IMG/VR virus record: IMGVR_UViG_3300021960_000497
Location: 1-24,064 of that record
DNA length: 24,064 nt
Source: a virus
Strand: one strand, 5' to 3'
Shown: piece by piece, positions 6,101-22,572 of the stretch
Layout: each line of letters opens with the position of its first letter
How positions within the stretch are numbered: position 1 is the first letter of the stretch
The notes under the pieces: model-generated
Databases searched by the model: none
Seen by the model: only the letters and a program-made list of their open reading frames with translations
What the model was told of the DNA's origin: nothing
Position numbers and translations under genes: made by a program

Positions 6101-7180
6101 ATTTCGAATAGTTTCTTCGGTGCTTAAAGTAATATTACACTCATAAAGAGGAATAGTAGCTGTAGCAGGTGCAGTAGTTAATGTATAAGCTGCTGTTATA
6201 TTTTCACCCGAACCTGACTGAGTTTGAGTGTATAATGTATCAGCAGTTTCATCATAATACAAATAACCAGCCATATAAGGTTCAATGTTTGTACTAGGAA
6301 AATCAGATAAAGATGTATAAGAAAATATAGGCTTTACATCATTAACTTCCCCGCCAATAGTAGCGCCTGTTAAAACAGGAGTCTCACAAATATCTGCTGC
6401 ATTATAAAAAGATTCTAAGTCTACATCAGTAGCAGCTAATCCTCTTCCAAAATTACTATTTAATAAATAGTCTAACAAACACAAAGCAGGGTTATTAGAA
6501 TAAGTATAACTTGAACTTAAAGAATAAGTGTAATTAGGACTTGAGCCACTACGAGTAATAGCTCGTACTTTTCTTCCTTTAACAATATAACCCATAGAGG
6601 GAATGCCGCTGTATTGAGGTTCTTCTCTATTTAATTTAAAAAAGTTATTAACGTAAGCACAGCCAGTAAATTTATTTGTAGAAGGAAATCCAAAACCAGT
6701 TGCAGAAGCGTCTGCTGTTCCACCATCTGTGTGTATTAAAAATCTATGATTAAAAGAAGATTTGTTTTCTTTCATTTCTTTAGTATAGCCGCGATAATCA
6801 ACATCATTAACTAAAATATGTTTTATACCTTCAATACCACCATGGCATAAGGCTGTTTGAACGGCAAGAAATTCGTTTTTAGAACCTAGTTGTTGTCCAC
6901 TACCAAAATCAGTAGCTAATACTTGATCAGCATTTTCAGTAACAGAAGGATAACTTGAGTTTACTTTATAGCTACAATGAATCCCTCCTATTCTTTGTTT
7001 TCCATAAACAATAGGCAATGGTGCAGAAGTTCCAGATACAGTAAACTTTTGCCCTTTTCGGGCATCAGCTGCTGCATCCATTTTCTTTTTCATTTTTTCT
7101 GTTTGTTTTTGTTGATACGCCATGGAAGCAGCAGTTAAAGCCATTTGTATCATTTGTAATGTAAATGGATCTAATCCCAT
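125..7180 (-). CDS. Giant tail-tip (lambda J-like) host-contact protein
   Basis: About 2351 aa. I prefer the ATG at 7180 over the in-frame GTG at 7195: the ATG overlaps the previous stop as TAATG and has GGGGGAAAG upstream. Residues 1-560 look like a J-type tail-tip hub, including a PGDLIKV motif near 507. A fibronectin-III-like domain follows (about 570-690). Three tandem pairs of modules then run from about 744 to 1524: module A contains VNLTSxDYSxIY and module B contains NIVxIxMxNEAHV, separated by collagen-like Gly-X-Y linkers. A long C-terminal part includes a Gly-rich segment (about 2076-2232). The last 115 residues (VNFNGSGSNSS...IRDSGN) match the three small tip proteins at 9783-11690. 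It should sit at the tail end and touch the host surface. It is about twice the length of lambda J (near 1130 aa) because of the inserted modules. Tail-tip identity is fairly sure; receptor binding is inference. Confidence 0.8.
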   Translation of the reverse strand: MGLDPFTLQMIQMALTAASMAYQQKQTEKMKKKMDAAADARKGQKFTVSGTSAPLPIVYGKQRIGGIHCSYKVNSSYPSVTENADQVLATDFGSGQQLGSKNEFLAVQTALCHGGIEGIKHILVNDVDYRGYTKEMKENKSSFNHRFLIHTDGGTADASATGFGFPSTNKFTGCAYVNNFFKLNREEPQYSGIPSMGYIVKGRKVRAITRSGSSPNYTYSLSSSYTYSNNPALCLLDYLLNSNFGRGLAATDVDLESFYNAADICETPVLTGATIGGEVNDVKPIFSYTSLSDFPSTNIEPYMAGYLYYDETADTLYTQTQSGSGENITAAYTLTTAPATATIPLYECNITLSTEETIRNNIERILNTMGLSDLVWTPQGKYKLILSYPQTQAQQDTLVTQTFNEDNIVRDSVKLAFPKAQERFNQITVSFDNEFENFKDDTFTWPPTNSSIHQTYLTEDNNQPLTTSLQGDGVTSKYHAQALAEQQVRKSRALYILNFSVNKEGLTVEPGDLIKVNIPTMSISNEAYRVESIKVLNDFSVEISAYKFDFSVLAWNVPNDLDYIVKPDFDFVVAPPTSLAYNSTANISGTSSGKLTWTAANDASVIEYIIEVRTATGTDSNGDTTYSNYRSIGTSTTTEFDLIGFKTGTYQFSVRSKNITGLRSERVHITQGLNLITVGKVEPIYADTATQASNNQSLTVGNNQFVAFFINNGEDLTSNDLPIRASTQTLEFKKFVGEDGVDGTGSNAKVVNLTSSNYSIIYNTSGATPSPSSITLTANAQNFNSTRFKFTGGGTAFTDETSYKTGNTATFTLPSNISANTTFTFNVSTVEAADTSTEVANDSITLLAIKTATDGTNGTNGADGSDGSDGNNGNDGSDGADGNDGADAANIVNIVMSNEAHVLPASSAGVVSSHTGSGTLFELFRGSTQLTPTTGTVGQNQFKVTVANNANITEGAGSVSSNQFVFADHSNMSSSVDVIVLPYTITVRNEVNNGNETYVKSQSLSKSKAGADGNPGASGTNAKTVNLTSDDYSLIYDASGNISTSPATTATLTASSQGFTNPEFSFKKNGTGATTFASGNTLGLSTANTGTNSIASTISVNTKNTYLVEVKESGGSVEATDSIDIVSLKTASNGTNGTNGTNGTNGTNGEDADNIVTIIMTNEAHVFAANNAGTVTSFAGSGTGIEIFRGATALTATTKTAQQALGANEFKVSANATNMTLATSSSPSASGNTVTFADHTAMSADQGSITYTITVRNEANDGDETYTKTQSFSKSKQGNVGATGTAAKTVNLVADDYSVIYNTSGASPSPTSVGLTASAQNFNNPKFIFKKDGSNASNISSTSTLSLSTNGSGINLPNTISSTTKSTYLVEVYESADTNTVVATDSIDIIQLRTASNGATGAAADNIVNIIMSNEAHVFPAENTGTNNIVYTGSGTSFELFRGSTALTATTGTVDAANEFKVTSSVTGITVGSSSTSNNTFTFGDHSSWTSSSDSLVITYTITIRNEANNGNETYTKVQSLSLSRVGTQGAQGAQGIPTTIQSDNWTFGTDTSPDASSTGEAVFLFYEATFDTYYAQTGGAWSSNLTHIRMYKNSNAGTDYLNDLTARPVGSLLTFSQGDSWLIAKITSTPTEAFGMIEFEVSVEEYGGEINLGSYAVGWNPKGADGEQGADGTIVTINGAEIFIDTNPKNNNDADYIKSSVYTGVDKSSSWGGPAVPYKVFTDPNITITGTYTVVPESTSNANDPSGAGMYLRKSGGSYYDRVPQNGSWADAEALLIQRTDVNGTNYATQLDALVAGDFILVEISSSNFGLYYIDSVNTTPAPVFLNVTLVQSQGTFAIANNSNLTITTHVRNYTVNNANLTDAFLQANSQLGAMSNIPVRSAVWAKFQQTNANGVDNSNNYSYRSWDAANSTWSNHSAEIGGIDTPLFAHDLISEEAFLTKVNAVKINVDRLQINNSVALEDGGAWRVNKGTPDDDAINGIFVGNPQTNSNGVNHDFAIVSTGGAGSSNTHGVKFTESETKLINPDIYLGTTNTSFQNSHENTGTSVLNVSAAGIGSYNSSTGIGSKSITLSIVGSGGGGAAADSQQTGAASGGSSSYTIYNNGSAIFTNTVSSGAAGTGFGAAKTDGDAGENSQFGIGGSGGGNYGAGGTGSKGAGGGGGGGRDASAWTSSRKGGGGGNAGQSGVFTHDLTSYAGPFTISFSLAAGGAGGTGSRGNGGRGGGGYATYSVETDTLKKMDLKPFGVKAFVNFNGSGSNSSTATIRDSGNIASVYKIVNGIFVVTFSNAMPNSNYGVTYGAGSSTAVSAGNGTTCDLYSKTSTGFSVAVTDPTDNNLVSPHTIMFTIVGSD
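2610..4950 (-). repeat. Three tandem A-B Ig-like module pairs inside the J-like gene
   Basis: Module A (VNLTSSNYSIIYNTSG and relatives) begins near 4950, 4125 and 3330. Module B (NIVNIVMSNEAHV and relatives) begins near 4520, 3735 and 2980. Each B ends with a conserved YTITVRNExNxGxETYxKxQS stretch. The period is about 265-275 residues. The repeats differ at many residues, so they are old protein-level duplications and not exact DNA copies. They probably form a string of beta-sandwich domains that lengthens the tail tip. Confidence 0.75.
4515..4640 (-). repeat. Collagen-like Gly-X-Y coding microrepeat
   Basis: On the plus strand this tract reads as repeated ACCATCA/ACCATCACT units and encodes a run of G-T-N, G-A-D, G-S-D and G-N-D triplets. 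A second tract of N-G-T triplets is at about 3730-3795 and contains two near-identical copies of an 18-bp unit. Shorter G-A-Q triplets are at about 2575-2610. Collagen-like triplets are common trimerising shaft segments in phage fibres. Confidence 0.75.
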
Positions 7181-7917
7181 TATACTTTCCCCCACTTAAG
7201 ATTAATCTCACTGTCTTCGTAAAGACTATCAAAAGATGTATCTGAGGCATCTAATTGATCCATGCCATCTTTAGAAACCATTTTTACATTAACTTGATCT
7301 AAATCTGCCATTGGCGAAGTTCCTTCAATTACAGCTAATTTAGTATCCCAGTTATTTTCGATAGAAGGTCCATCAACAAAGCCTGAATACAAATTAATTA
7401 TATCTTCTGTAGCAATTAAAGGTTGATCATTAGCAGGGTTAATAATTCCCACTTTAACTCTTATAGGCGCACCAATAACACCCGCTTTAAAATGAGCAGC
7501 AAATTGATCTGAAATATCAGTAATAACTATTTTATAGGCTTCTCTGTCTAAAACAGAAGAAAAATTAGGAGCTTCAAATTCAAATAATCCACCATCGGCT
7601 ATATAAGTATTACTATCCCAAGTAATATTCCTATTATAGCTTGTAAAGTAATAATTAGTTGTTGAATAACCATCTGTTGTATAGTTTATATTAGTACTCC
7701 AATTTGAAGAACTTCCACTAGGTGTACTATTACTATTATTTGAAGTTGCAATGTATTTTACTTCATTAAGTACTACTATGTCTCCGGTAATATAATTTGT
7801 ACTACTAGACCATGTAGTAGGCGTTTTATAATATTTAAATTCTAATTCAATTAAAAAGAAATACTTAAATCGCTCCGCATTAATTGCAGTTTGAACTGCT
7901 GAACTAAACTCTCTCAT
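7180..7917 (-). CDS. Tail-tip associated protein (DUF2163-like)
   Basis: 245 aa, starting at ATG 7917, which overlaps the previous stop as TAATG. The N-terminus (REFSSAVQTAINAERFKYFFLIELEF) and the end (DxxDTSFDSLYEDSEINLKWGK) resemble the DUF2163-type tail proteins of marine and alphaproteobacterial siphoviruses and gene transfer agents. Those begin with a similar helix and end with a D-x-G-F-x-Y ... W-G-K motif. The middle contains the usual beta-rich core (TDISDQFAAHFKAGVIGAP, then LYSGFVDG). It lies directly before the J-like gene, as its relatives do, and probably forms part of the tail-tip complex joining the tube to the J-like protein. A Ser/Thr/Asn-rich insertion at about residues 35-100 is unusual. 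Family placement is from memory of motifs. Confidence 0.65.
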   Translation of the reverse strand: MREFSSAVQTAINAERFKYFFLIELEFKYYKTPTTWSSSTNYITGDIVVLNEVKYIATSNNSNSTPSGSSSNWSTNINYTTDGYSTTNYYFTSYNRNITWDSNTYIADGGLFEFEAPNFSSVLDREAYKIVITDISDQFAAHFKAGVIGAPIRVKVGIINPANDQPLIATEDIINLYSGFVDGPSIENNWDTKLAVIEGTSPMADLDQVNVKMVSKDGMDQLDASDTSFDSLYEDSEINLKWGKV

Positions 7918-9071: not shown

Positions 9072-9755
9072 TTATAACTTTTCTTTAATAAACATTCTTA
9101 CTAGATCTGCTACAATATCACTACGAACAATATCATCTACTGTAAACTTAATTACAGGTAGTGGTATGTAATTCTTTTTAATTAAAGCACAAAACTTTAA
9201 TAAGTCTTGACCTTTGCGCACATCGGATTGTGCTGGATCTCCCATAAGCACTAACTTAGAATTTTCCCCTAGACGAGTACTAATTGCTTTAAGTTCATCA
9301 ATCGAAAGATTTTGAGCTTCGTCTACGAGTACTAAAGAGTTCTCAAAAGAACGTCCTCGTATTGTTTCAATAGGTTGAATTTCAATTTCACCCTTATTAA
9401 TCATGTATTTATATTTTTCTTTACAGAAAGCCCGTTCAAACACTTCTAGAATAGGCAAGAGCCAAGGTGTCATTTTTTCTTGAATAGTTCCAGGAAAATG
9501 ACCTAAGCTTTTACCTGTAGATACGTTAGCACGAGTAATTACAATTTTCTCATAACCGCCTTTTTGGTAAAGATGTGCGACCGTTCCTGTACTGCAGTAG
9601 GTTTTTCCGGTTCCAGCGCAACCAATAGCAACAGTAATAGGATAGACTTTAATAGAGCGAATGAGTTTATCTTGCTTTTCATTCTTTGGTATGACATGGA
9701 ATCCTATCCTGTGTATATTATTTTTAGTAGCATAACGAGATTTTCTTTTGCTCAA
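9072..9755 (-). CDS. phoH: PhoH-like P-loop ATPase
   Basis: 227 aa. It has a Walker A motif GCAGTGKT (residues 45-52), a Walker B motif LVLVDEAQN (141-149), and a sensor-like LVLMGDPAQ stretch, all typical of the PhoH/RNA-helicase-1-like family. The start codon is TTG at 9755: an in-frame TAA lies a few codons upstream, no earlier ATG exists, and AAGGAAATAAAAAT sits just before it. PhoH-like genes are widespread in marine phages and are often used as a marker; their role is not settled (proposed in RNA metabolism or phosphate stress). Here it lies between tail-fibre-tip genes and tail-tip genes instead of with replication genes. No toxin partner or PIN domain is fused. Confidence 0.9.
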   Translation of the reverse strand: MSKRKSRYATKNNIHRIGFHVIPKNEKQDKLIRSIKVYPITVAIGCAGTGKTYCSTGTVAHLYQKGGYEKIVITRANVSTGKSLGHFPGTIQEKMTPWLLPILEVFERAFCKEKYKYMINKGEIEIQPIETIRGRSFENSLVLVDEAQNLSIDELKAISTRLGENSKLVLMGDPAQSDVRKGQDLLKFCALIKKNYIPLPVIKFTVDDIVRSDIVADLVRMFIKEKL

Positions 9756-11330: not shown

Positions 11331-11690
11331 TTAATTTATCCCAAAAAAGTAGCTAAAGCCATCATAGTCATATTCAGTGTTTCTATAACCGCTTATCATT
11401 CTAATGGATGTTGAAGTTTTAGTTAAATAACCAGCGGTGGTTATCCCATCATCTGAATTGCCAAGGCTATCATCGTAACCACAACCACCGTAAGCATAAT
11501 AAGCAGTTGAATTAGCATTAGAAAAATTAAAAGTCTGATTTCCAGTAGCATGGTCTGCTATACTAGATAGAGCACCACTTCCATTTATGCCATTTGATTG
11601 AGGTGCGTAATCTACCCAACATCTGTTGAAAAATACTTTTCCACCGTTAGTAGTTGATTCCTGTATATCATTTACGTTAAGCGTACTCAT
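11331..11690 (-). CDS. Small tail-fibre-tip protein, paralog 1
   Basis: 119 aa, start codon directly after the previous stop (TAAATG). The start MSTLNVNDIQESTTNGGKVF is the same type as the 121-aa paralog's MSTIKVDNLQ. The body (NRCWVDYAPQSNGINGSG, then SSIADHATGNQTFNFSN) keeps the same pattern: an aromatic Trp-Val pair, a loop, S-S-I-x-D-x-x-T-G and N-F-S. It is the most divergent of the three stand-alone copies, with a Tyr/Gly/Asp-rich second half and two Cys. Likely a host-contacting appendage protein. Confidence 0.6.
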   Translation of the reverse strand: MSTLNVNDIQESTTNGGKVFFNRCWVDYAPQSNGINGSGALSSIADHATGNQTFNFSNANSTAYYAYGGCGYDDSLGNSDDGITTAGYLTKTSTSIRMISGYRNTEYDYDGFSYFFGIN

Positions 11691-11906
11691 TTATACCACC
11701 GTCCATGTTTCACCAGATCCAACTGTAACTGTAACACCGCTGTTAATTGTAATTGGCCCTGCAGACATTGCATTATGATTATTCCTAATAGTATAACTAG
11801 ACGCTACCGTAGTAGGATTTTCTTTAAATACTGCTAAAGAGTTATTATCCATTTCTGTATGTGTTAATGCACTGCCTTTATCCGCTCTTGTTGTAATAGA
11901 TGTCAT
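11691..11906 (-). CDS. Small fibre-associated virion protein
   Basis: 71 aa. Its start (ATG 11906) overlaps the stop of the glycosyltransferase-like gene as ATGA. The N-terminus TSITTRADKGSALTHTEMDN resembles the start of many phage fibre proteins (I-T-x-R-x-x-K-G-x-x-L-T). The C-terminus PITINSGVTVTVGSGETWTV is a short beta-stack motif often found at the end of fibre shafts. It probably represents a minimal fibre piece or connector. The gene is followed without a gap by the first fibre-tip paralog, so the two are likely co-translated. Confidence 0.6.
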   Translation of the reverse strand: MTSITTRADKGSALTHTEMDNNSLAVFKENPTTVASSYTIRNNHNAMSAGPITINSGVTVTVGSGETWTVV

Positions 11907-12796
11907 CGATAATCATATCCTCTAGTTGTAGAAACATAATCGTATTTATATTCTTCTCGTTTGTCTAGAATATACTCAAAATACATTTCCATTTGTTTTT
12001 GCCAGTTTTCTTGTAGTTCAGGGTTTACAATTCCCGATTTAGGGCTATTTAAAGCCTTTTGCATCCAATTATAAGGATCACTATTATTAAATAAATTTCT
12101 GTTTATATGGTAAAAAGAACCTTCATGTACTCTGTTATAAACATCAATAGGATCTACTTCCTTACCTAAAGCTACAGCATAAACTGCACTTTCTGTCATA
12201 TGTGATAAGTGTGCTACTTCACAACCAAGTAGTAACTTATACATATTAATATCTCGATCTAATACTATATCCCCAAGCATGTCTTTTAATTCACCAACAA
12301 TAGCGTAAGTGGTAAGAGGATGTGGTTTAAACCAGATATCACCCTCCCACTTATCTCTTAAATAACACAATTTATTTGCACAAATAGTTTCTTTAATTTT
12401 ATTAGAACCTAACGGTATAATTAAATGATCTTTAGGCTCAAGATCATGATCCTTAATATGATCATATTTATTAGAAGTACCGTTAGTAGCTTTTTCTACA
12501 AAGTAAGACATAAAATCTGTTTTTATTTCACAGTCATCTTCGTGTGCTTCTTCTAGTTGTTTACAACGAAGCATTTGTTGAAGCGGATTCATGGAAAAGC
12601 AATGCGCCCATTCAGTGTATTGTATAGTTTTGAAATAAGGAAGTTCATTTGCAACTACATCGTATGCAGACTCAATCTTATGTTTCTTTTTAAGTTTAAA
12701 AAAATGTTTTTCACATTCTTTTAAGTGCAAAAGAGTTTTTGATTTACGCATATCGCCAATACGCTCTTTAATAGAGGCTTTATTAAACATTTCCAT
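11903..12796 (-). CDS. GT-B-fold glycosyltransferase-like protein
   Basis: 297 aa. The second half carries a pattern typical of capsule-polysaccharide and CDP-glycerol-type transferases with a GT-B fold. It has WFKPHPLTT (residues 155-163, with the K-P-H-P motif), then DINMYKLLLGCEVAHLSHMT with ESAVYAVALGKEV (182-214), matching the usual D-x-x-x-Y-x-L-L ... A-D-V-x-x-T-x-x-S-S ... E-A-x-x-L-G-K block. The first 110 residues are helical and Lys-rich and I do not recognise them. The gene lies directly after the Ser/Thr repeat gene (9-base gap) and before the fibre-tip genes. A virion-protein-modifying enzyme is therefore plausible, although the usual second Ser of the S-S motif is replaced (T-E-S-A). 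Enzyme activity is inferred. Confidence 0.5.
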   Translation of the reverse strand: MEMFNKASIKERIGDMRKSKTLLHLKECEKHFFKLKKKHKIESAYDVVANELPYFKTIQYTEWAHCFSMNPLQQMLRCKQLEEAHEDDCEIKTDFMSYFVEKATNGTSNKYDHIKDHDLEPKDHLIIPLGSNKIKETICANKLCYLRDKWEGDIWFKPHPLTTYAIVGELKDMLGDIVLDRDINMYKLLLGCEVAHLSHMTESAVYAVALGKEVDPIDVYNRVHEGSFYHINRNLFNNSDPYNWMQKALNSPKSGIVNPELQENWQKQMEMYFEYILDKREEYKYDYVSTTRGYDYR

Positions 12797-12805
12797 GATA
12801 TTATC

Positions 12806-15085
12806 CTAACTGTAAAATGAAGTCACCCTAAGCGTATTAAACGTAGTTGTGGTGCTTCTACTTGTGCTAAATGTGGTTGTAAACGTACTACTAGTACTAA
12901 ATGTAGTAGTAAAAGTAGTAATAGTACTTTTGCTTGTTGAAAAAGTTGTCGTTGTTGACCTTGTTGTATTAAAAGTAGTAGTAGTACTCCTAGTAGTATT
13001 ATAATACGTTGTATAAGTTGTAATAGTACTACGAGTTGTGTTAAACGTTGTAGTTGTACTATGACTAGTTGCATACGTTGTAGTCGTACTTCTACTAGTG
13101 CTTGTTGCAAAAGTAGTAGTAGTACTATGACTTGTAGCATAAGTAGTTGTAGTGCTCCTACTAGTGCTTGTTGCAAAAGTTGTTGTAGTACTATGACTAG
13201 TTGCATACGTTGTTGTTGTACTTTTAGTAGTATTAAATGTTGTTGTAGTACTATGGCTTGTTGTATGACTAGTTTGATATGTTGTAGTTGTACTTTGGGT
13301 AGTATTATAAGTTGTAGTTGTAGCTCTACTAGTGGCAAACGTAGTAGTAGTACTGTGACTAGTTGTATGTGCAGTCAGATATGCCGTTGTAGTTGACTTA
13401 CTGGTATTATAAGTAGTAGTAGTACTCCTAGTAGTATTATAATACGTTGTATAAGTTGTCGTAGTTGAACGACTAGTAGAGAACACAGTTGATGTAGTTC
13501 TACTAGTATTAAACGTAGTAGTTGTCAAAAGAGAAGTGTTTCTACTAGTGTTATACGTAGTAGTTGTAATTTTAGCCGTGTTATAAGTTGTCGTAGTTGT
13601 ATGACTTGTAGTATAAACCGTTGCTGTAGTTCTACTAGTTGAAAAGGTTGTAATAGTAGCCATAGACGTATTATAATACGTAGTATACTCTGTTGTTGTA
13701 CTACGAGTCGTATTAAACGTTGTAGTTGTACTATGGCTAGTATTAAATGTTGTTGTAGTACTATGGCTAGTGTTATAGCTTGTTGTAGTGCTATGGCTAG
13801 TATTATAACTTGTAGTCGTATTATACGTTGTTGTAGTGCTTTTACTTGTACTAAATGTAGTAGTCGTATTAAACGTAGTCGTAGTGCTTCTACTTGTGCT
13901 TGCACTAGTATTTACAACATAATTTACATTCATATAGTTAGTAGCAACGTAGTTTTGAAAACTTGTATTAAACGTTGTTGTAGTACTTTTACTTGTACTG
14001 GTCGATCGAGTAGTGTTAAAGGTCGTAGTTGTACTATGACTTGTGCTTGTTGATCGACTGGTACTATAAGTCGTAGTCGTACTTTTGCTTGTTGAATATG
14101 TTGTAGTTGTACTTTTGCTAGTTGCATAAGTCGTTGTTGTACTATTACTTGTACTAAAAGTCGTAGTTGTACTATGACTCGTAGTATGACTAGTTTGGAA
14201 AGTTGTAGTTGTACCCTTAGTAGTATTATAAGTAGTAGTCGTACTATGACTAGTATTATATGTAGTAGTTGTACTATGACTAGTTGCATAAGTTGTAGCT
14301 GTAGTACGGCTAGTTGAGAAAGTAGTAGTAAAAGTCGTAGTAGTAGATCTACTTGTACTAAACGTAGTTGTAGTACCACGAGATGTATTAAAAGTTGTAG
14401 TTGTACTATGGCTTGTAGTATGACTAGTGGTAAAAGTCGTAGTTGTGCTGTGACTTGTAGAATACACTGTTGTAGTACTTTTACTTGTAGAATACACTGT
14501 TGTATAAGTCGTAGTGGTACTTTTAGTAGTATTAAAAGTTGTCGTTGTACTGTGACTCGTAGCAAACGTTGTAGTCGTGCTATGACTAGTATTATAATAA
14601 GTCGTATAAGTCGTAGTTGTAGCTCTACTAGTAGCAAAAGTAGTAGTAGTACTAGTATTTGTATTATACGTTGTTGTTGTACTTCTAGTAGTGTTTGTAT
14701 TAAACGTTGTAGTCGTACTTGTATTTGTATTATACGTAGTAGTAGTACTTCTAGTAGTGTTTGTATTAAACGTTGTAGTCGTACTATGACTAGTATTATA
14801 AGTCGTAGTTGTTGCACGACTAGTTGCAAAAGTAGTAGTAGTACTATGCTCAGTACTATGACTAGTTTGGAAAGTTGTAGTTGTACTATTACTTGTCGCA
14901 AACGTAGTAGTTGTAGCTTGACTCGTATTGAATGTTGTTGTTGTAGACGCAGTTGTAGCTCTACTAGTATTAAATGTAGTTGTTGTACTTCTACTAGTAT
15001 TAAATGTAGTAGTCGTAGATTTAGAAGTGGAGACTGATGTGCTCCACTCCTTTATCCCGTCCATAAATCCAAAGTTGTTGCTCAT
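12806..15085 (-). CDS. Thr/Ser repeat protein (10-residue repeats), putative fibre
   Basis: 759 aa, ATG at 15085 with AGGAGATTCTT upstream. After an 18-residue head (MSNNFGFMDGIKEWSTSV) nearly the whole protein is built from a 10-residue unit S-T-T-T-T-[FY]-[NASQ]-T-[ST]-[RHKN], about seventy copies. Some are extended by 2 or 4 residues (T-N-T-T-R, T-S-H-T-T-S-H, Y-T-T-Y-Y-N). By eye about three quarters of residues are Thr or Ser. Pro and Cys appear absent and Gly is rare. One aromatic recurs per unit. The array is broken once, at residues 376-392 (FQNYVATNYMNVNYVV), almost exactly at the centre. A regular beta structure such as a solenoid or intertwined trimeric shaft would suit this pattern. 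Position between a tail fibre and fibre-tip genes suggests a virion appendage. Function unknown. Confidence 0.75.
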   Translation of the reverse strand: MSNNFGFMDGIKEWSTSVSTSKSTTTTFNTSRSTTTTFNTSRATTASTTTTFNTSQATTTTFATSNSTTTTFQTSHSTEHSTTTTFATSRATTTTYNTSHSTTTTFNTNTTRSTTTTYNTNTSTTTTFNTNTTRSTTTTYNTNTSTTTTFATSRATTTTYTTYYNTSHSTTTTFATSHSTTTTFNTTKSTTTTYTTVYSTSKSTTTVYSTSHSTTTTFTTSHTTSHSTTTTFNTSRGTTTTFSTSRSTTTTFTTTFSTSRTTATTYATSHSTTTTYNTSHSTTTTYNTTKGTTTTFQTSHTTSHSTTTTFSTSNSTTTTYATSKSTTTTYSTSKSTTTTYSTSRSTSTSHSTTTTFNTTRSTSTSKSTTTTFNTSFQNYVATNYMNVNYVVNTSASTSRSTTTTFNTTTTFSTSKSTTTTYNTTTSYNTSHSTTTSYNTSHSTTTTFNTSHSTTTTFNTTRSTTTEYTTYYNTSMATITTFSTSRTTATVYTTSHTTTTTYNTAKITTTTYNTSRNTSLLTTTTFNTSRTTSTVFSTSRSTTTTYTTYYNTTRSTTTTYNTSKSTTTAYLTAHTTSHSTTTTFATSRATTTTYNTTQSTTTTYQTSHTTSHSTTTTFNTTKSTTTTYATSHSTTTTFATSTSRSTTTTYATSHSTTTTFATSTSRSTTTTYATSHSTTTTFNTTRSTITTYTTYYNTTRSTTTTFNTTRSTTTTFSTSKSTITTFTTTFSTSSTFTTTFSTSRSTTTTFNTLRVTSFYS
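12840..15040 (-). repeat. Array of ~30-bp coding repeats (S-T-T-T-T-[FY]-x-T-S-x)
   Basis: Tandem coding units of 30 bp with 36- and 42-bp variants. The protein pattern is strongly kept while third codon positions vary freely: neighbouring S-T-T-T-T units are spelled TCT ACG ACT ACT ACA and AGT ACA ACA ACT ACA. The hexamer ACTAGT recurs at many Thr-Ser junctions. The restricted codon set leaves most other frames open over long stretches, so long frames on both strands here are shadows. Confidence 0.85.
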
Positions 15086-15097
15086 AAGAATCTCCTA

Positions 15098-18000
15098 TTA
15101 TGCGAAGTTTCCTATATAGTTTACTAGGACTTCTGTTGAACTTACTACCATATACGATAATACTGATGTTGAATTAGCACCTGTATACTGTGTAATAGTA
15201 GCACCTCCGACTGGTGTTTTGCAAGAAGACGGTAAGGTAAAGTCTCTACCTCCCGTAGAATCTTGTTTTAATACAATAGTACCTGAACTTGTAACTGCAT
15301 TAGCTAAATTTGATAAAGTAAATGTAGTATCTGCTTGCATAGTAACTACATGAAAGTTAGATGCAGTCATATCAATAGTAGTAGCCGAAGTAGAGGCAGT
15401 AACAGTATTTGCTGTTGATTTAACAATACCACCAACATTAGCAGTACCAGACAAGTGAAGGTCTTTCCAACGCTTATCGGATTTACCTAAGTCTATCGCA
15501 TTGTCTGCATCAGAGCCATTTTGTTTAGGAACAATGGTATTGTCTTTAAAGCGCAATCCTGAATGATTAGCACTACCGTCTATAACAAAGTCACCGTTGC
15601 TGTCAGTCCCAATACTCCCCACAGTGGTGCCATCTTTGCGGAACACTGCAATGTCGCCGTCACTATCTTCACGATTAAGTATTTGTGCAATGCCAGTTCT
15701 TGTTGCCGTTAATAAACCACTAGCCTGTAACTCAATACCATTTGTATTATTGTAAGTATCTGCTGAAGTCTTACCCACCAACAAGTTACCGCTGCTGTCG
15801 ATGACTAATCTATTTGCAGAAGCATCTACGTCCCTTATCGTAAAACCGCTATTGGCAACTCCGGGTGTACCTGCTGTTATTTGAAAGTTATCGGCATTTG
15901 CATTACTGTGGCTTAGATTTATTGCAGGGAGTGATGATGAGCCTGTGCTAATGCTTAGGTTGCCAGTCATAGTACCGCCAGCTAAAGGTAATTTAGTAGC
16001 AATTGAATCAGTAACAGTAGTGCTAAAGTTAGCGTCATCATTTAAAGCTGCTGCTAACTCGTTAAGAGTATCTAAAGTAGAAGGTGCTGAGTCAACAAGG
16101 CTAGACACAGAAGTGTCAACATACTGTTTTGTTGCTGCACCTAAATTAACACTAGGATTAGCATTAAGAATTAAATTGCCAGTCATAGTGCCACCAGCTT
16201 TTGGCAATGCTGCGTTAGCAGTAGTACCCTGTGCGGCTGTAGCATAGTCGGAGCTATCAAATGCTTTAACTTGTGATAGGTTAGTAACTTCGCTATCCAT
16301 TAAGGCACCAGCGGCAGTAACATTAGTAGTATCTGTTACATCAGCAGAGGCTTCTATGTTATTTAATTTAGTATGATCACTGTCAGTAAATACATTACTA
16401 TCTGTAGCCGATTCTACAAGAGTACGTATTTCAGCTGCAGTTTGATCTGCAGTTGCAGAGGCTTCAATTCCATTAATTTTAGTTTTATCCGCTGCAGACA
16501 TTAATCCTGCTGCAGAAGTAGTAGCGGCACTATAAACAGTATCACTATCATCTACCCATGCATAATCACTACCATTCCAAGCTAAAATTTGATTATTACC
16601 TGCCGAGGATTGATTAAGATGTGTATCTACATCACTATTAGCATATCCTGCAGGAACACTTGCCCAATCATAATCACTACCATTCCAAGACAAATATTCT
16701 CCGCTTGAAGCTGTAGAAGTATTTAAATGAGAATCTACATTACTATTGGCGTATTGAGCACTTCCTGAAATTGTAAGAGAGTTACCCGCATCATTATAGT
16801 TTAAAGTAATTCCAGTTCCAGCTGTAAGTAACCCACCTACAACATCTTGAATAGCTTCTGTTGTAGCTGCTGTAGCTCCCCAATTTGATCCATCATAAAC
16901 TTTAAGCGAACTATCAGTTGAGTTAAAATACAATGCACCTGTTATAAGAGCATTACCGTCGTTGTCAACTGAAGGATCAGAAGATTTACTTCCTAAGTAT
17001 CGATCATCAAAACTGTCTAAAGCAGCTTCAGCTGCTGTTTGAGCAGTCTGAGCGGAAGTCGCACTTGATGCAGCACCAGTTGCTGAACTTGCAGCCGCAG
17101 TAGCACTACTAGCAGCATTTGTCTCTGCTGTTTCTGCATTAGTTTCAGCAGTCTCCGCAGCAGTTTTAGCGGTCTCAGCAGCGACCTTTGAAGTATTAGC
17201 AGCAGTAGCAGAATTAGAAGCATTAGTAGCACTTGTAGCTGCTGCAGTAGCTGAGTTTCCAGCATTAGTTGCAGAAGTAGACGCGCTCGTAGCACTAGTA
17301 GTAGCCGAAGTAGCAGCGTTAGTTGCTGTTACAGAAGGCGCTTGCCATGCTGAACCACTATAAAATTTAATTACATTGTCAGTGCTATTATAATACATAG
17401 CACCTTCTACTAAGGCATTACCGTCATTATCAACACTTGGATCAGAACTTTTGGTTCCTAAAAACTTATCGTCAAAATTATCAAAAGCTAATTCGGTTGC
17501 TGCTTGCGCTGTTTGTGCTGCTGTAGCAGACGTAGCTGCATTAGTAGCAGAAGTTGAGGCACCGCTTGCAGAAGTAGCCGCATTAGTAGCTGAAGTAGAT
17601 GCTCCACTAGCAGAGGTAGCAGCATTAGTTGCTGATGTAGCAGCAGCGGTTGCGCTATTACCTGCGTTAGTAGCTGATGTAGCAGAATTAGTAGCACTAG
17701 TCGAAGCACTGCTTGCGCTTGAAGCAGCTGCTGTAGCTGAGTTCCCTGCATTAGTTTCTGAAGTGGCTGAGTTAGTAGCGGATGTAGCAGCACTAGTTGC
17801 AGATGTAGCTGCTGCTGTAGCACTATTAGAAGCTGCTGTGGCACTTGTCGCTGCATTATTTGCTAAAGTGCTAGCAGTTGATGCACTACCCGCAGAATTA
17901 TTAGCTGACGTTAAAGAAGAGGCCGCTGAAGTGGCGGCACTAGTGGCACTAGTAGCTGCTGCTGTAGCACTATTAGAGGCTGCTGCTTCAGGGGATTCCC

Positions 18001-19111
18001 ATGCTGTTCCATTATAAAACTTAATAGCATTATTTGTACTGTTGTAGTACATAGCACCTTCTACTAAAGCATTACCATCATTATCTAGAGTTGGATCTGA
18101 TGCTTTAGTGCCTAAGAACTTATCATCAAAGTTATCAAATAATAACTCTACTGCTGCTCTGTCTGTTGCTGTATCAGTCTTATAGTTAAGAGCACTTGCA
18201 GCTGAAGCAGTAGCTGAAGTCGCACTACTAGCTGCACTTATAGCATTTGCTGCTGCATTAGAAGAATGATTCCCCGCTGTAGTAGCTGAGTTAGCCGCTG
18301 CAGTAGCTGAAGATCCTGCACTAGCTGCACTATTAGCAGAATTAGTTTCTGAGGTGGCTGCAGCAGTTTTACTAGCTGTGGCGCTAGTATCAGAACTAGA
18401 AGCAGACGTAGCAGATGCAGCAGCTGCAGTAGCGCTATTCCCTGCATTAGTTTCTGAAGTAGCCGCATTGGTTTCGCTAGTAGCTGCATTAGCTGCTTTC
18501 GTAGTAGCTGTTGAAGCACTCGCTGAAGCATTAGTAGCACTCGTGGCTGCATTAGTTTCTGCTGTTTCAGCGTTAGTCTCTGCTGTTTCAGCTGCGACCT
18601 TAGAAGTGTTAGCTGCTGTCGCAGAGGTAGCTGCTGCTGTAGCCGAAGTAGCTGCTGCGGTAGCACTGTTAGCCGCTGCAGTAGCCGATGTAGTTGCTAA
18701 TGCAATAGGATATTGCCAAGTATTTACGTTGTATACACCTAAAGCAGAGGTTGTAGTATCAAAGTACATAGCTCCGTTTTGAAGAGCATTACCATCATTA
18801 TCGAGGCTAGGTGCTGAAGACTTAGAGCCTAAAAACACATCATCAACAGTATCTGCTGCTGTTTCTGTAGCGACCTTTAAAGCAGTAATAGATGCAATTA
18901 AATTAGCACCACCAAGATTTACATCTTGTACTTGTTGTCCTGCTGAGTTACTTATTATTACGTGAAAGTCTCCATTACTATCAATAGAGGCATTTGTGAT
19001 AGAATCACCTTTAGCGCCTTGACCACCTGTTCTAGACAGGGTAAGGTTAACATCTTGTGATGTGCTTGTTAAAGCATAGTTGTTTCCATTAATTGTAATA
19101 GCATAAGACAT
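15098..19111 (-). CDS. Long tail fibre protein with heptad and knob modules
   Basis: 1337 aa, start directly after the stop of the 148-aa gene (TAAATG). The N-terminus has a short collagen-like GGQGAKGDS. A knob-like module (F-D-D-K-F-L-G-[ST]-K ... D-N-D-G-N-A-L ... G-A-[ML]-Y-[YF]) occurs four times, at about residues 89-134, 324-372, 544-592 and 700-745. Between the copies are long Ala/Ser/Thr stretches with a seven-residue period (A-T-S-A-T-A-A), as in the trimeric coiled-coil shafts of lambda-type side tail fibres. Two copies of an N-G-S-D-Y-x-W segment follow (about 805-860), then two L-P-x-A-G-G-T-M-T-G-N-L motifs (near 972 and 1042) typical of side tail fibres. The C-terminus is beta-rich without a recognisable S74 self-cleaving chaperone. 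Confidence 0.85.
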   Translation of the reverse strand: MSYAITINGNNYALTSTSQDVNLTLSRTGGQGAKGDSITNASIDSNGDFHVIISNSAGQQVQDVNLGGANLIASITALKVATETAADTVDDVFLGSKSSAPSLDNDGNALQNGAMYFDTTTSALGVYNVNTWQYPIALATTSATAAANSATAAATSATAAATSATAANTSKVAAETAETNAETAETNAATSATNASASASTATTKAANAATSETNAATSETNAGNSATAAAASATSASSSDTSATASKTAAATSETNSANSAASAGSSATAAANSATTAGNHSSNAAANAISAASSATSATASAASALNYKTDTATDRAAVELLFDNFDDKFLGTKASDPTLDNDGNALVEGAMYYNSTNNAIKFYNGTAWESPEAAASNSATAAATSATSAATSAASSLTSANNSAGSASTASTLANNAATSATAASNSATAAATSATSAATSATNSATSETNAGNSATAAASSASSASTSATNSATSATNAGNSATAAATSATNAATSASGASTSATNAATSASGASTSATNAATSATAAQTAQAATELAFDNFDDKFLGTKSSDPSVDNDGNALVEGAMYYNSTDNVIKFYSGSAWQAPSVTATNAATSATTSATSASTSATNAGNSATAAATSATNASNSATAANTSKVAAETAKTAAETAETNAETAETNAASSATAAASSATGAASSATSAQTAQTAAEAALDSFDDRYLGSKSSDPSVDNDGNALITGALYFNSTDSSLKVYDGSNWGATAATTEAIQDVVGGLLTAGTGITLNYNDAGNSLTISGSAQYANSNVDSHLNTSTASSGEYLSWNGSDYDWASVPAGYANSDVDTHLNQSSAGNNQILAWNGSDYAWVDDSDTVYSAATTSAAGLMSAADKTKINGIEASATADQTAAEIRTLVESATDSNVFTDSDHTKLNNIEASADVTDTTNVTAAGALMDSEVTNLSQVKAFDSSDYATAAQGTTANAALPKAGGTMTGNLILNANPSVNLGAATKQYVDTSVSSLVDSAPSTLDTLNELAAALNDDANFSTTVTDSIATKLPLAGGTMTGNLSISTGSSSLPAINLSHSNANADNFQITAGTPGVANSGFTIRDVDASANRLVIDSSGNLLVGKTSADTYNNTNGIELQASGLLTATRTGIAQILNREDSDGDIAVFRKDGTTVGSIGTDSNGDFVIDGSANHSGLRFKDNTIVPKQNGSDADNAIDLGKSDKRWKDLHLSGTANVGGIVKSTANTVTASTSATTIDMTASNFHVVTMQADTTFTLSNLANAVTSSGTIVLKQDSTGGRDFTLPSSCKTPVGGATITQYTGANSTSVLSYMVVSSTEVLVNYIGNFA
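16875..18850 (-). repeat. Four knob modules separated by Ala/Ser/Thr heptads
   Basis: Knob modules are encoded near 18850-18710, 18140-17995, 17480-17335 and 17010-16875. The last three are more alike (FDDKFLGTKASDPTLDNDG and close variants) than the first (VDDVFLGSKSSAPSLDNDG). Linkers of about 190, 170 and 110 residues consist of A-T-S-A-T-A-A-like heptads. Confidence 0.8.
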
Positions 19112-20418: not shown

Positions 20419-21228
20419 TTATCTATCGGTAACTCTACGTTTATTAAGACCTAAACGCCGACCAAGACGACTATTTGAAAGGTCATTCCCTTTTCTTCTA
20501 GCTGCAGCTGAAGCTTTTCTGGCTTTTTCTAATGCAGCTTTTTGAGCAGCACTCCCCCATTTTTTAGCATTTCCAGGAGCACTCTTTGCAGTAGCTTTTA
20601 CATTCTTTTTAGCCATAAAAACTTTACCACTAGCAATAGTTTTAGCTCTAGAAAACTTTGAACCAAACCCAACATTATCTTTTACAGCGGCTTTAACCTT
20701 ACGACCTGTTTCCGAATTTTTTGCTCTACGAAAACTTTTAACTAATCTGCTTGGTGTTTTACTTCCGCTTTGGCCAAATTTACGGTTAGCTTTTTCACGA
20801 CCACTTTCACCTTTAAATCTGTTAGTTTGACGAGTAGCTCTTTCACGACCACTTTCTTTAATAGATGTAGCTGCTTTACGAATACCTTTTTCACGACCAG
20901 TTTGACGTACCGTCGAACCTGTCTTGCGAACAGCCTTTTCACGACTAGTTTGGCGTACTGTTGAACCTGCCTTGCGAACAGCCTTTTCACGATTAGTTTG
21001 AGTTACAGTAGAACCTATTTTACGAACCGCACCCTCTCGTGCAGTTTGAGTTACAGTAGATCCTATCTTACGAACAGCTTTTTCACGACTACTTTCGTAA
21101 ATAAATTCCCCTGCATCTTTAATGCCACCCTCCCTAGCGTCAGGTCTACGAGAGGCTCTGTATGCCGCAATTTTTCCTAGTATTTTGTTATATGCTTTTT
21201 GGGATGGTCTATAATATTTTTCTGCCAT
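20419..21228 (-). CDS. Basic protein with 16-residue tandem repeats
   Basis: 269 aa, ATG at 21228 with AAAGGAATAAATAA upstream. After a 31-residue head come about eight 16-residue units (residues 32-159) of form R-E-K-A-V-R-K-x-G-S-T-V-x-Q-T-x. The central four (48-111) are almost identical and the outer ones decay. The C-terminal 110 residues are Lys/Arg/Ala-rich (VKAAVKDNVGFGSK, AAQKAALEKARKASAAARRK). Each unit has a helix-like charged half and a T/V half, so a repetitive helical or nucleic-acid-coating protein is possible. I recognise no family. It follows the large terminase with a 15-base gap, so it is made late and may go into the head. Role unknown. Confidence 0.7.
   Translation of the reverse strand: MAEKYYRPSQKAYNKILGKIAAYRASRRPDAREGGIKDAGEFIYESSREKAVRKIGSTVTQTAREGAVRKIGSTVTQTNREKAVRKAGSTVRQTSREKAVRKTGSTVRQTGREKGIRKAATSIKESGRERATRQTNRFKGESGREKANRKFGQSGSKTPSRLVKSFRRAKNSETGRKVKAAVKDNVGFGSKFSRAKTIASGKVFMAKKNVKATAKSAPGNAKKWGSAAQKAALEKARKASAAARRKGNDLSNSRLGRRLGLNKRRVTDR
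20752..21135 (-). repeat. 48-bp coding tandem repeats (16 aa)
   Basis: Eight in-frame 48-bp units. The plus strand shows repeated CTTTTTCACGA and TTTGAGTTACAGTAGAACCTAT-like blocks. The central units at about 20896-21087 are closely related at DNA level, which points to recent unit duplication. Confidence 0.8.
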
Positions 21229-21243
21229 TTATTTATTCCTTTG

Positions 21244-22572
21244 TTAAAAACTAAACCCGCGCTTAACGACTTTAGTTCCTGCTCTAATTGGGTACAGATA
21301 TTCTACTGCATAACGCAGGGCATCTGTCCAGTGTTCAATACCTTCCTTTTTGTCAATCGTAGCACTATCTGGGTTAGACTCTACCCACTGTGTACGCTCT
21401 AGAGACCTTATTGTATTAACACACTTAGGGTGTATAAGCATGTCAATATCACCATTGGCGTTCTTAAACTTTTTATTTACAGCTGCTACTGAGTCTACAA
21501 TCGGTGGAGCTTTGCTATGTGCTCTGGTGACGATCTTGTTTGTCTCTAGGATCTTGAAATCGGTAACACCGACAGCAGCTGAAGTTTTTCTCGCCCTCCC
21601 AGAAGGATCCGGATAGCTAATAATACGATGACCATTATACTTTTCCGTAAGCGCCCTTGCTAGGGTTTCAGTATCGGGATGTCCTTGCATCTCATCTAAG
21701 ATGTGTATTTGACTACCCCTAATTGCGAAGATAACTGATGCCATAATACCAACGTTAAAGTCGATAGCTACATGAACATCCTCTTCGTCTTGGAATGAAG
21801 GAAGTGTTTTGTCTATATGATCCTTGCGGTTAAATGTATAGAATACATTAGTACCAGAGTCTTCGAAGCTTGCAGTATACTCTCTGGCAAACTTTAAAGG
21901 ATCAAGGGTTAGTTTTACTCTTTCGATTTCCTCATCATCGAGGAATGGAGAGTCGTGATATGTGTAATGATAATTTTTCCAGTCTTCATCAGAATCTTGT
22001 CTGTTATACATTTCATAAAAGTAGTCATAGCCTCTGGGAGTGCTAATAATAAGCGCTCTACCAGCATTAGCTCCAAACTTTTTAGCGTTCTGAGGAGACC
22101 AACGAGTACTCACACAAGGTTGTATAATAGACTCCCAAGACTCCTTGAGATTCATACCTGCACCTTTCCATGAAGTAACCTCATCGGCTACTACAAAGTA
22201 TTGACCCGTACCACGCATACGCTGTGATGCCTCATAAGACCAAAGCTTAAGTAGTACGTTATTAGGAAACCAAAACGTTCCAGCTGCCTTAGATGCCTTA
22301 TCAGCAAAGTCTTCCATGCCTAATTGCCAAGCTATTAGTGGATAGTAAATATCTACTGCCTGAGAGTAAGTAGGTGCTATTAGTGCTACGTTCTTATTAG
22401 GTACTGACTCGTCTAATTCCATTAACTCTTGTACTGCTACGATAGCTGCTGTTGCTGCTAAGTAAGACTTACCAAAGCCACGACTAGCATTAACTACTGC
22501 ATATCTGCAAGACTTATCTACGAACAGATCTCTGATAACATCAGACTGTCCTTCATGTAAATTAATTTCCAT
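21244..22572 (-). CDS. terL: Terminase large subunit
   Basis: 442 aa. It packages DNA into the head, with an N-terminal ATPase and a C-terminal nuclease. Walker A is SRGFGKS (residues 30-36), Walker B is FVVADE (126-131), and the coupling motif is STPRG (177-181). In the RNase-H-like nuclease the acidic residues are D271 (VAIDFNVG), D293 (ILDEMQ) and D417 (HWTDALRY). The length matches the compact Terminase_6 type. The ribosome binding site is weak (AGAGAATAGTT). It comes after the probable small terminase with two small membrane-protein genes in between. All catalytic positions look intact. Confidence 0.95.
   Translation of the reverse strand: MEINLHEGQSDVIRDLFVDKSCRYAVVNASRGFGKSYLAATAAIVAVQELMELDESVPNKNVALIAPTYSQAVDIYYPLIAWQLGMEDFADKASKAAGTFWFPNNVLLKLWSYEASQRMRGTGQYFVVADEVTSWKGAGMNLKESWESIIQPCVSTRWSPQNAKKFGANAGRALIISTPRGYDYFYEMYNRQDSDEDWKNYHYTYHDSPFLDDEEIERVKLTLDPLKFAREYTASFEDSGTNVFYTFNRKDHIDKTLPSFQDEEDVHVAIDFNVGIMASVIFAIRGSQIHILDEMQGHPDTETLARALTEKYNGHRIISYPDPSGRARKTSAAVGVTDFKILETNKIVTRAHSKAPPIVDSVAAVNKKFKNANGDIDMLIHPKCVNTIRSLERTQWVESNPDSATIDKKEGIEHWTDALRYAVEYLYPIRAGTKVVKRGFSF

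Follow-up and report, generated by a model that had tools for sequence, protein, structure and literature searches.

We analysed a stretch of viral DNA of 24,064 nucleotides (nt) (IMG/VR virus record IMGVR_UViG_3300021960_000497, whole stretch, hereafter the window), in which a gene on the minus strand at 12806-15085 encodes a putative fibre protein of 759 amino acids (aa), P0001, composed of threonine/serine/aromatic repeats. That this protein is a full-length hairpin with its turn at the midpoint is strongly supported by patterns kept in its sequence and in those of its relatives, and we consider it likely overall that it forms an antiparallel β "needle" fibre, tip outward, which would be O-glycosylated by its own enzyme of GT-B fold.

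Mirrored halves of the repeat protein

Close relatives of the window gene (loci are numbered L) provide what we regard as the strongest evidence that the two arms would contact each other. The genes of L008 and L019, 89% identical in DNA, differ by six insertions or deletions (indels) which make up three mirrored pairs of equal length, namely 34, 44 and 16 aa before the tip (at -180, -74 and -36) and 16, 44 and 34 aa after it (at +37, +77 and +150). L021 and L029 show a 44-aa indel on each side of the tip, at -45.8 and +46.5, along with two adjacent compensating gaps of 15 nt; in the codon alignment of L021 with L023, indels of this size fall at -30.5 and +81.5, the repeats making their placement ambiguous. 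Between the window and L014, 24-aa indels lie near both outer ends and the total length difference is alike in the two arms (63 and 62 aa); the many small indels of distant pairs (window-L015, L024-L031 and L008-L021) could not be paired.

The putative tip, or turn, is FQNYVATNYMNVNYV (residues 376-390 of 759; 13916-13960, minus strand), and the stretch around it is the one inner part of the window protein that is poor in Ser and Thr. The preliminary description of this DNA had the protein consist almost only of repeats; the repeats were confirmed, but this sole non-repeat inner segment, placed at the midpoint, had been overlooked. It separates an outgoing arm (residues 20-375; 13961-15028, minus strand; arm length 375 when counted from residue 1) from a return arm of 369 aa (residues 391-759; 12809-13915, minus strand) which ends in TLRVTSFYS and whose aromatics mirror those of the outgoing arm. 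Eight complete members (463-831 aa) fit the strict pattern of the tip motif, which they have at a relative position of 0.501-0.504, and the complete single-chain relatives that have a central Ser/Thr-poor segment (285-899 aa) have it centred at 0.499-0.516, except L038 with segments at 0.457 and 0.508. Across 15 distinct proteins, the window's included and the tip being placed by eye in three (L037, L043 and L080), N-terminal arms of 136-442 aa are matched closely in length by the C-terminal ones (r = 0.9995, mean N-C difference 2.3 aa, standard deviation 3.1), the N/C lengths being 375/369 in the window and 312/307, 425/419, 295/291, 225/223, 269/265, 269/267, 239/238, 229/227, 409/407, 136/129, 397/400, 348/348, 442/442 and 424/427 in the others. 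Exact duplicates were excluded from all counts.

Counted outward from the tip, the aromatics of the window protein coincide between arms in 31 of 35 cases (r 0.78), a correlation that none of 1000 gap shuffles reached, and the mirrored correlation exceeded all 1000 gap shuffles in each of the 12 tested proteins with a recognisable tip, the near-duplicates L035 and L065 being left out. When the centre was not fixed in advance, all 200 shuffles were exceeded by 21 of 41 complete open reading frames (ORFs; 5'-open ones and L003 left out), and 19 of these were single-chain proteins centred at 0.497-0.525. The best registers were +1 and +11 in most proteins, -4 in L048 and +12 in L064. The mirrored correlation of the window protein is higher than its direct half-to-half correlation (.78 vs.61), as is also seen in other irregular proteins. 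Repeat genes readily expand and contract, and the symmetry might have a mutational origin, in an inverted duplication, instead of reflecting a hairpin under selection; the probability of this we hold to be close to negligible, since such an event would give a reverse-complement reading and not a reversed protein, the repeat cores of the window gene are diversely encoded (35 encodings for 43 cores), and the relation persists with the arms as two genes. Mirror symmetry by DNA inversion was rejected by this argument; palindromic copies at the mirrored indels were not searched for.

Spacings of more than three residues between aromatics are even in 70 of 73 cases in the window protein and in 3775 of 3972 (95%) across 75 distinct family ORFs, some of them fragments, as counted at a Ser+Thr cut-off of 30% that leaves out the 116-aa protein of phage Cr30 (27% Ser+Thr). 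Such even spacing is what an extended strand with alternate-facing residues would need. The family displays even spacings of 4, 6, 8, 10, 12, 14, 16, 18, 22 and 24, and the window protein has 4, 6, 8, 12, 14 and 16 besides 10, which contradicts the earlier notion of a fixed period with only 2- or 4-residue extensions. When both ends and the recurring YTTYY motif are set aside, the parity is steady, by eye, within each half of the window protein and flips at the midpoint. The parity is weaker in KVP40.0254 (13/16) and 6E35 (9/13), proteins of isolated phages.

The 759-aa ORF is real, with an ATG start and an open frame, and its product is 48.4% Thr, 17.7% Ser, 5.7% Phe, 5.4% Tyr and 0.5% Gly, with four Gly in all and neither Pro nor Cys, a scarcity that had been described correctly. 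The count of about seventy units was slightly high, as 61 match [STA]Txxx[FYW]xxxx and 43 match [ST]TTTT[FY]. Aromatic pairs 10 residues apart number 49, whereas 2000 residue shuffles averaged 9.3 and never exceeded 17; this rules out a chance ORF, and the 43 [ST]TTTT[FY] cores are written in 35 different DNA encodings, which rules out a recent artefact of DNA slippage. The shuffle excess and the diversity of encodings together show that the protein pattern is old and has been maintained by selection.

The preliminary description also favoured a real fold, a β shaft, over disorder. Parity, mirror symmetry and mirrored indels support this indirectly, but the single-sequence AlphaFold2 (AF2) monomer was uninformative (mean predicted local distance difference test score, pLDDT, 42.6) and gave no confident shaft model. 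The mirrored register of the two halves counts against the β-solenoid named in that description. In such a solenoid, or in a stacked meander, each 10-residue unit would be one rung of a local coil with no half-to-half pairing, as the regular period and the single strand of 5-8 residues that AF2 draws per unit over much of the chain would suit; we judge it improbable, as it leaves unexplained the equal arms, the mirrored indels, the conserved midpoint segment, the antiparallel match of two separate proteins (below) and the tolerance of varied even spacings. A disordered mucin-like stalk without defined fold, its Thr and Ser serving glycosylation only, would agree with the extreme Ser/Thr content, the near-constant glycosyltransferase-like neighbour and the low AF2 confidence. 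Disorder, however, predicts neither 95% even spacing nor mirror symmetry nor compensated indels of equal length, and the protein has no Pro and few Gly, so that we take this stalk to be decidedly improbable.

In a T4-like marine group the arms are probably made as two separate proteins, TS-A and TS-B, the gene order being docking protein, TS-A, methyltransferase-like gene, TS-B and enzyme (the middle gene of L101 had no match in Pfam). At its start TS-A resembles the single-chain protein, and its C-terminus may carry Peptidase_S74, matched above the cut-off in L101 (1e-5) and below it in L102 and L103. The repeat parts of A and B measure 844/827, 841/824, 783/763, 969/953, 1151/1127, 558/544, 571/554, 289/302, 622/751 (L170) and 516/428 residues in ten pairs (r 0.98; 0.995 without L170), and in every pair the match to B is better for the reversed A than for A read directly, the antiparallel match being above all 100 shuffles in nine; L129 is the exception, 13 of 100 shuffles reaching its value. 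TS-A of L170 looks frameshift-truncated, its C-terminus resembling another frame and its antiparallel match to TS-B being offset by 129 residues. S74-type chaperone domains form homotrimers on the known fibres of K1F and T5, according to the available part of PMC10579305, which deals with chaperone hairpins and not with the Thr/Ser repeat protein. By this analogy the S74 domain of the split form lends indirect support to a trimer, and the three-chain intertwined shaft named in the preliminary description is possible.

Further loci were collected out of sample by a DNA pattern for TTTT[FY]NTS, with no use of the enzyme, and the counts hold among the matches listed. They comprise 43 new distinct complete ORFs, 20 of them above all 60 shuffles and 13 of these 20 centred at 0.47-0.53. 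By their ends, 19 of the 43 were classed by eye as single-chain, and 12 of those were both significant and central. Many of the mirror correlations are low (0.2-0.35); the best new case, the 1701-aa protein of L178, has r 0.67, a centre at 0.501 and a tip segment at 0.502. A further single-chain type, with the ends MAIYVNDSGTLR ... WDGSQWSE, is seen in L111, L139, L146, L154 and L157, where it reaches 1556 aa and has its mirror centre at 0.50. Rescans with the fibres of L080 and L064 gave mostly contigs that were already in the set.

Several observations weigh against a hairpin, or against its generality. The inner indels between the window and L014 have no one-to-one pairing, L039 is without a Ser/Thr-poor centre, and L048 and L064 have many Ser/Thr-poor stretches, with extra ones also in L065. 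In the free-centre test 20 of the 41 complete ORFs were not above all 200 shuffles; these are mostly TS-B arms of the split form and include both Caulobacter phage proteins, KVP40.0254 (195/200 shuffles reach its value) and 6E35 (8/200). The Caulobacter proteins also fail parity (14/22 and 10/23 even). Registers 10 residues apart score alike, which fixes the pairing only to about one unit, and in five short regular relatives the direct half-to-half correlation exceeds the mirrored one (direct/mirrored.82/.76 in L021,.80/.71 in L008,.89/.70 in L024,.85/.69 in L031 and.85/.80 in L023). In the split form, the direct (parallel) match of A and B was also above all 100 shuffles in six of ten pairs, and their lengths differ by up to 88 aa, or 129 in L170. 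Six of the 19 new single-chain ORFs were not significant and L128 was significant but off-centre, and AF2 on the fibre alone (pLDDT 42.6) drew local strands and no long hairpin.

The equal length of the arms and their mirrored register imply antiparallel pairing. In the hairpin fibre that we prefer, arms of ~375 and ~369 residues would pair in this way either side of the midpoint segment, as extended β strands lying side by side with, as the parity suggests, an aromatic/basic face and a Ser/Thr/Asn face. At the base, the N- and C-termini would both rest on the C-terminal domain of the tail fibre encoded by the preceding gene, with the turn as the distal, host-facing tip, which would act as an adhesin. 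Several chains may wind into the needle, three by analogy with T4 gp37. An extended strand has a rise of ~0.33 nm per residue, and an arm of ~370 residues would span roughly 120 nm if the strands were axial. The GT-B neighbour would add sugar, likely from a CMP (cytidine monophosphate)-activated donor, to some of the hundreds of Ser/Thr, and the sugar may give a stiff, hydrated and protected coat. Cys-containing inserts with a similar Cys/Gly pattern lie at the hairpin centre in the fibres of L043 (residues 392-467) and L003 (residues 1005-1078; incomplete at its 3' end), and possibly fit an exchangeable receptor-binding tip that could carry an adhesin domain.

The putative docking end is the base segment, residues 1-19 (MSNNFGFMDGIKEWSTSVS; 15029-15085, minus strand), and its GF...[ED]W-type start is common to most single-chain relatives. 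The candidate docking partner is the 1337-aa tail fibre encoded at 15098-19111 on the minus strand, which has SAT-rich stalk repeats and whose C-terminus (..LSYMVVSSTEVLVNYIGNFA) recurs in the gene preceding single-chain relatives. In all 22 single-chain loci where the preceding gene was readable, it ends in this fibre C-terminal sequence, which was recognised by pattern in 20 and by eye in L022 and L048; several of these loci are near-duplicates. Homologs of the repeat gene thus stand near fibre genes, in keeping with the fibre role considered in the preliminary description.

The GT-B-like enzyme beside the repeat gene

A gap of 9 nt separates the repeat gene from the gene of a GT-B-like enzyme of 297 aa (11903-12796, minus strand), whose fold is closest to CMP-sugar transferases of the β-Kdo (3-deoxy-D-manno-oct-2-ulosonic acid) type. 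The best 80 of 168 loci anchored on the enzyme have the repeat gene directly upstream in 74 (start-minus-end distance 10-135 nt, median 53) and 0.8 and 2.5 kb upstream in two; the other four begin too close to the end of a contig to be counted (the 231 nt available in L033 encode something else), and the repeat gene is thus upstream in 76 of 76 testable loci. Among the matches listed for the repeat, 80 loci were taken, 11 of them without a repeat ORF; in the remaining 69 the enzyme is downstream in 49, there is no room for it in 19, and it is absent in one, L179, from the 1161 nt remaining, which gives 49 of 50, or 45 of 46 with at least 900 nt of room. The contigs are not all independent, and some are common to both sets. 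In 84,980 cellular genomes, searched with narrow peptide patterns, enzyme profile A1 gave 11 pattern matches and no relative, and profile A3 gave 18 matches and one relative, on the contig L097 of a metagenome-assembled genome.

The window enzyme matches phrog_26179 (E 7.3e-27), which includes members from phages Lullwater and Cr30, and its AF2 model is confident (pLDDT 89.2, predicted template modelling score 0.89). When this model was compared by VIA-align, the top 15 rows were all KpsC, WbbB or KrkA entries (Z 7.5-9.9, 207-229 residues), with Z 9.9 for KpsC (root-mean-square deviation 4.1, 229 aligned), 9.4 for WbbB and 7.8 for KrkA; a polysialyltransferase followed with 6.6 over 127 residues, and other GT-B proteins with ~6.6. 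Foldseek likewise ranked WbbB and KpsC first (best WbbB E 9.9e-4). KpsC is a member of the glycosyltransferase family GT107 and WbbB of GT99; KpsC, WbbB and KrkA, which are retaining β-Kdo glycosyltransferases, build capsule or O-antigen, and an HP motif is part of the CMP-sugar site in β-Kdo transferases. The enzyme has a KPHP motif at residues 157-160 (12317-12328, minus strand), in which K157, H159 and P160 are invariant in profile A3, and H159 and P160 in A1, A2 and A3 alike, L064 being left out of A2 as its given range held a stop. An invariant GxN (G130, N132) stands upstream of the HP, an [ST]-Glu motif (E202) is conserved, and in sub-threshold matches the HP is aligned to that of WbbB and KpsC. 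The likeness to KpsC, WbbB and KrkA is thus one of GT-B fold and of the HP region in those alignments; the enzyme differs from them by an identity of only 10-14% and by adjoining a phage fibre gene. A glycosyltransferase acting on its Ser/Thr-rich neighbour would be the simplest reading of the model and the gene order, and our guess for the donor is a CMP-activated sugar of Kdo or sialate type.

Some results speak against this assignment. The VIA-align Z values are moderate and the Foldseek TM-scores low (0.43), and the matches of the enzyme's sequence profiles to Kdo transferases in PDB do not reach significance (E 0.07-2). Profile A1 ranked WbbB first (E 0.07), A3 placed the unrelated Merlin (E 0.11) ahead of KpsC (E 0.96), and A2, the largest profile, found only the unrelated 2jpn (E 0.27) and neither WbbB nor KpsC. 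The window enzyme matched no Pfam family, 34 enzyme members gave one weak polysialyltransferase match in Pfam (E 0.37), and Capsule_synth (PF05159) had 0 matches in the window record. The catalytic Asp of Kdo transferases (D232 in WbbB, D160 in KpsC and D193 in KrkA, as the titles of adduct entries suggest) was not located in the enzyme, the alignments ending short of the site.

It could also be that the hairpin fibre is right and that the neighbour is a folding helper of GT-B fold or a modifier of the host surface. Dedicated chaperones often accompany phage fibres, and the sub-threshold sequence similarity to known transferases and the catalytic Asp not located would agree with this; the KPHP and [ST]-Glu (E202) motifs are kept, however, the best structural matches belong to one enzyme class, and two loci add further modification genes, which leaves this alternative unlikely, if worth bearing in mind. 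In L038 (3465-5999), a GT29-type gene (2.1e-5, above the cut-off) and a GT8-like gene (below it) lie between repeat gene and enzyme together with two methyltransferase-like genes, only one of which passes the cut-off, and in L042 (1755-3182) cupin, methyltransferase-like (below the cut-off) and 2-oxoglutarate (2OG)-Fe(II) oxygenase genes lie directly downstream of the enzyme. By eye, L043 (6910-8337) resembles this cupin/methyltransferase-like/oxygenase stretch of L042.

Known systems and isolated phages

The window fibre had no match in Pfam and PHROG at E 0.001, in Pfam at E 10, or among PDB chains up to E 1, solved gp37 included, where low-complexity bias may mask one; tblastn of the fibre and of its 48-aa centre found no match in INPHARED, for which the BLAST low-complexity filter is a possible cause. 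Needles of the T4 gp37 type carry HxH metal-binding motifs, and HxH does not occur among the 24 His of the window protein. The T4 gp37 needle is, in the available part of PMC9603124, an interwoven trimer whose chains leave the knob, reach the receptor-binding tip and return, each starting and finishing at the knob; the needle region (residues 811-1026, with D11 at 882-1019) is 20 nm long there. The fibre described here would share this out-and-back topology, as read from sequence, and differs from the T4 needle of that account in length (N-arms of 136-442 residues) and in that the whole protein would be the hairpin, is rich in Thr/Ser and adjoins a GT-B gene.

Serine-rich repeat glycoproteins are Ser/Thr-repeat acceptors encoded beside their own GT-B transferase, GtfA/B, and resemble the present pair in this arrangement; they differ in being bacterial adhesins and not phage proteins and in the enzyme family (GtfA/B stands in row 28 of the Foldseek result, E 0.12), and we know of no hairpin in them. 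In mycobacteriophages, phage-encoded glycosyltransferases have been proposed to act on a virion protein, which is a capsid protein, and the available part of the source mentions no Thr/Ser-repeat fibre (PMC11256854). A literature search on threonine-rich phage fibres, virion O-glycosylation, KVP40 genes and β-hairpin fibres found no description of the family among the matches listed.

The gene arrangement extends to isolated phages. In four phages of Caulobacter (Lullwater, Quill, BL199 and Cr30), an enzyme homologue comes directly after the gene of a Thr/Ser/Tyr-rich protein (only 116 aa in Cr30), itself preceded by a tail fibre gene or a fibre-like one, and in KVP40, QD01 and 6E35.1a the repeat/enzyme pair is one small gene apart. 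Around a Lys-Gly turn (VTKGSY or GCGKGVCG), the arms measure 54/54 in KVP40.0254, 50/50 in QD01_260 and 53/54 in 6E35 p0320. KVP40.0254 is like the window protein in being a Thr/Ser protein, though a small one, that has its turn in the centre, and a single small gene separates it from an enzyme homologue downstream; the KVP40 protein differs in an N-terminal PTSGAIS-type part (by eye) and in its PHROG match. Its family, phrog_30374, and phrog_26179 are both labelled 'unknown function'. The repeat protein of Vibrio phage 6E35.1a (L094:5153-5686) is annotated as a 'putative cell wall mannoprotein', probably by composition alone.

Whether these proteins represent a new class of giant viral fibre, a Thr/Ser antiparallel β hairpin made of one chain or of two arm proteins and O-glycosylated with a Kdo- or sialate-type sugar, is in our judgement evenly balanced. 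If so, many marine phage contigs would encode a sugar-coated needle of some 45-320 nm (if axial) with an exchangeable tip and arms that run to hundreds of residues (up to ~970 in L118, which is of the split form), the length of which evolves by paired mirror-image indels, a natural length-change experiment. The sequence patterns give a 'low-complexity' protein a decodable architecture, parity suggesting strand facing and mirror symmetry indicating turn and pairing, and a fold proves inferable from sequence constraints where single-sequence structure prediction fails. A candidate receptor-binding tip is named for many marine phages, a phage-encoded, fibre-specific glycosylation system is predicted, and isolated phages are included, namely KVP40 and, in smaller and less regular form, the Caulobacter phages Lullwater, Quill and BL199.

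Other genes of the window

The window record is siphophage-like, with a terminase, a distal tail protein and a J-like protein, and the repeat gene sits in its tail region between the 1337-aa tail fibre gene and the 297-aa gene. Downstream of the enzyme on the same strand, 11331-11906 encodes two small proteins, 71 and 119 aa long, which match tail-fibre PHROGs. A 100% identical copy of the repeat gene was found in a 60.8-kb contig, L100. The terminase of the window (21244-22572) and that of the contig (L100:8118-9446) have at least two differences in their first 110 residues, and the two records are closely related and not identical. Beside the terminase, at 20419-21228 (minus strand), a basic protein of 269 aa with several near-tandem REKAVRKxGSTVxQT-like units is encoded, which had no PHROG match. 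The J-like tail protein of 2356 aa (125-7195, minus strand) has, by eye, related NIVxIxMSNEAHV... modules alternating with collagen-like stretches, its Collagen match being below the cut-off, and a PhoH-like ATPase gene (9072-9755, minus strand; phrog_170, 1.6e-72) lies within the tail gene cluster.

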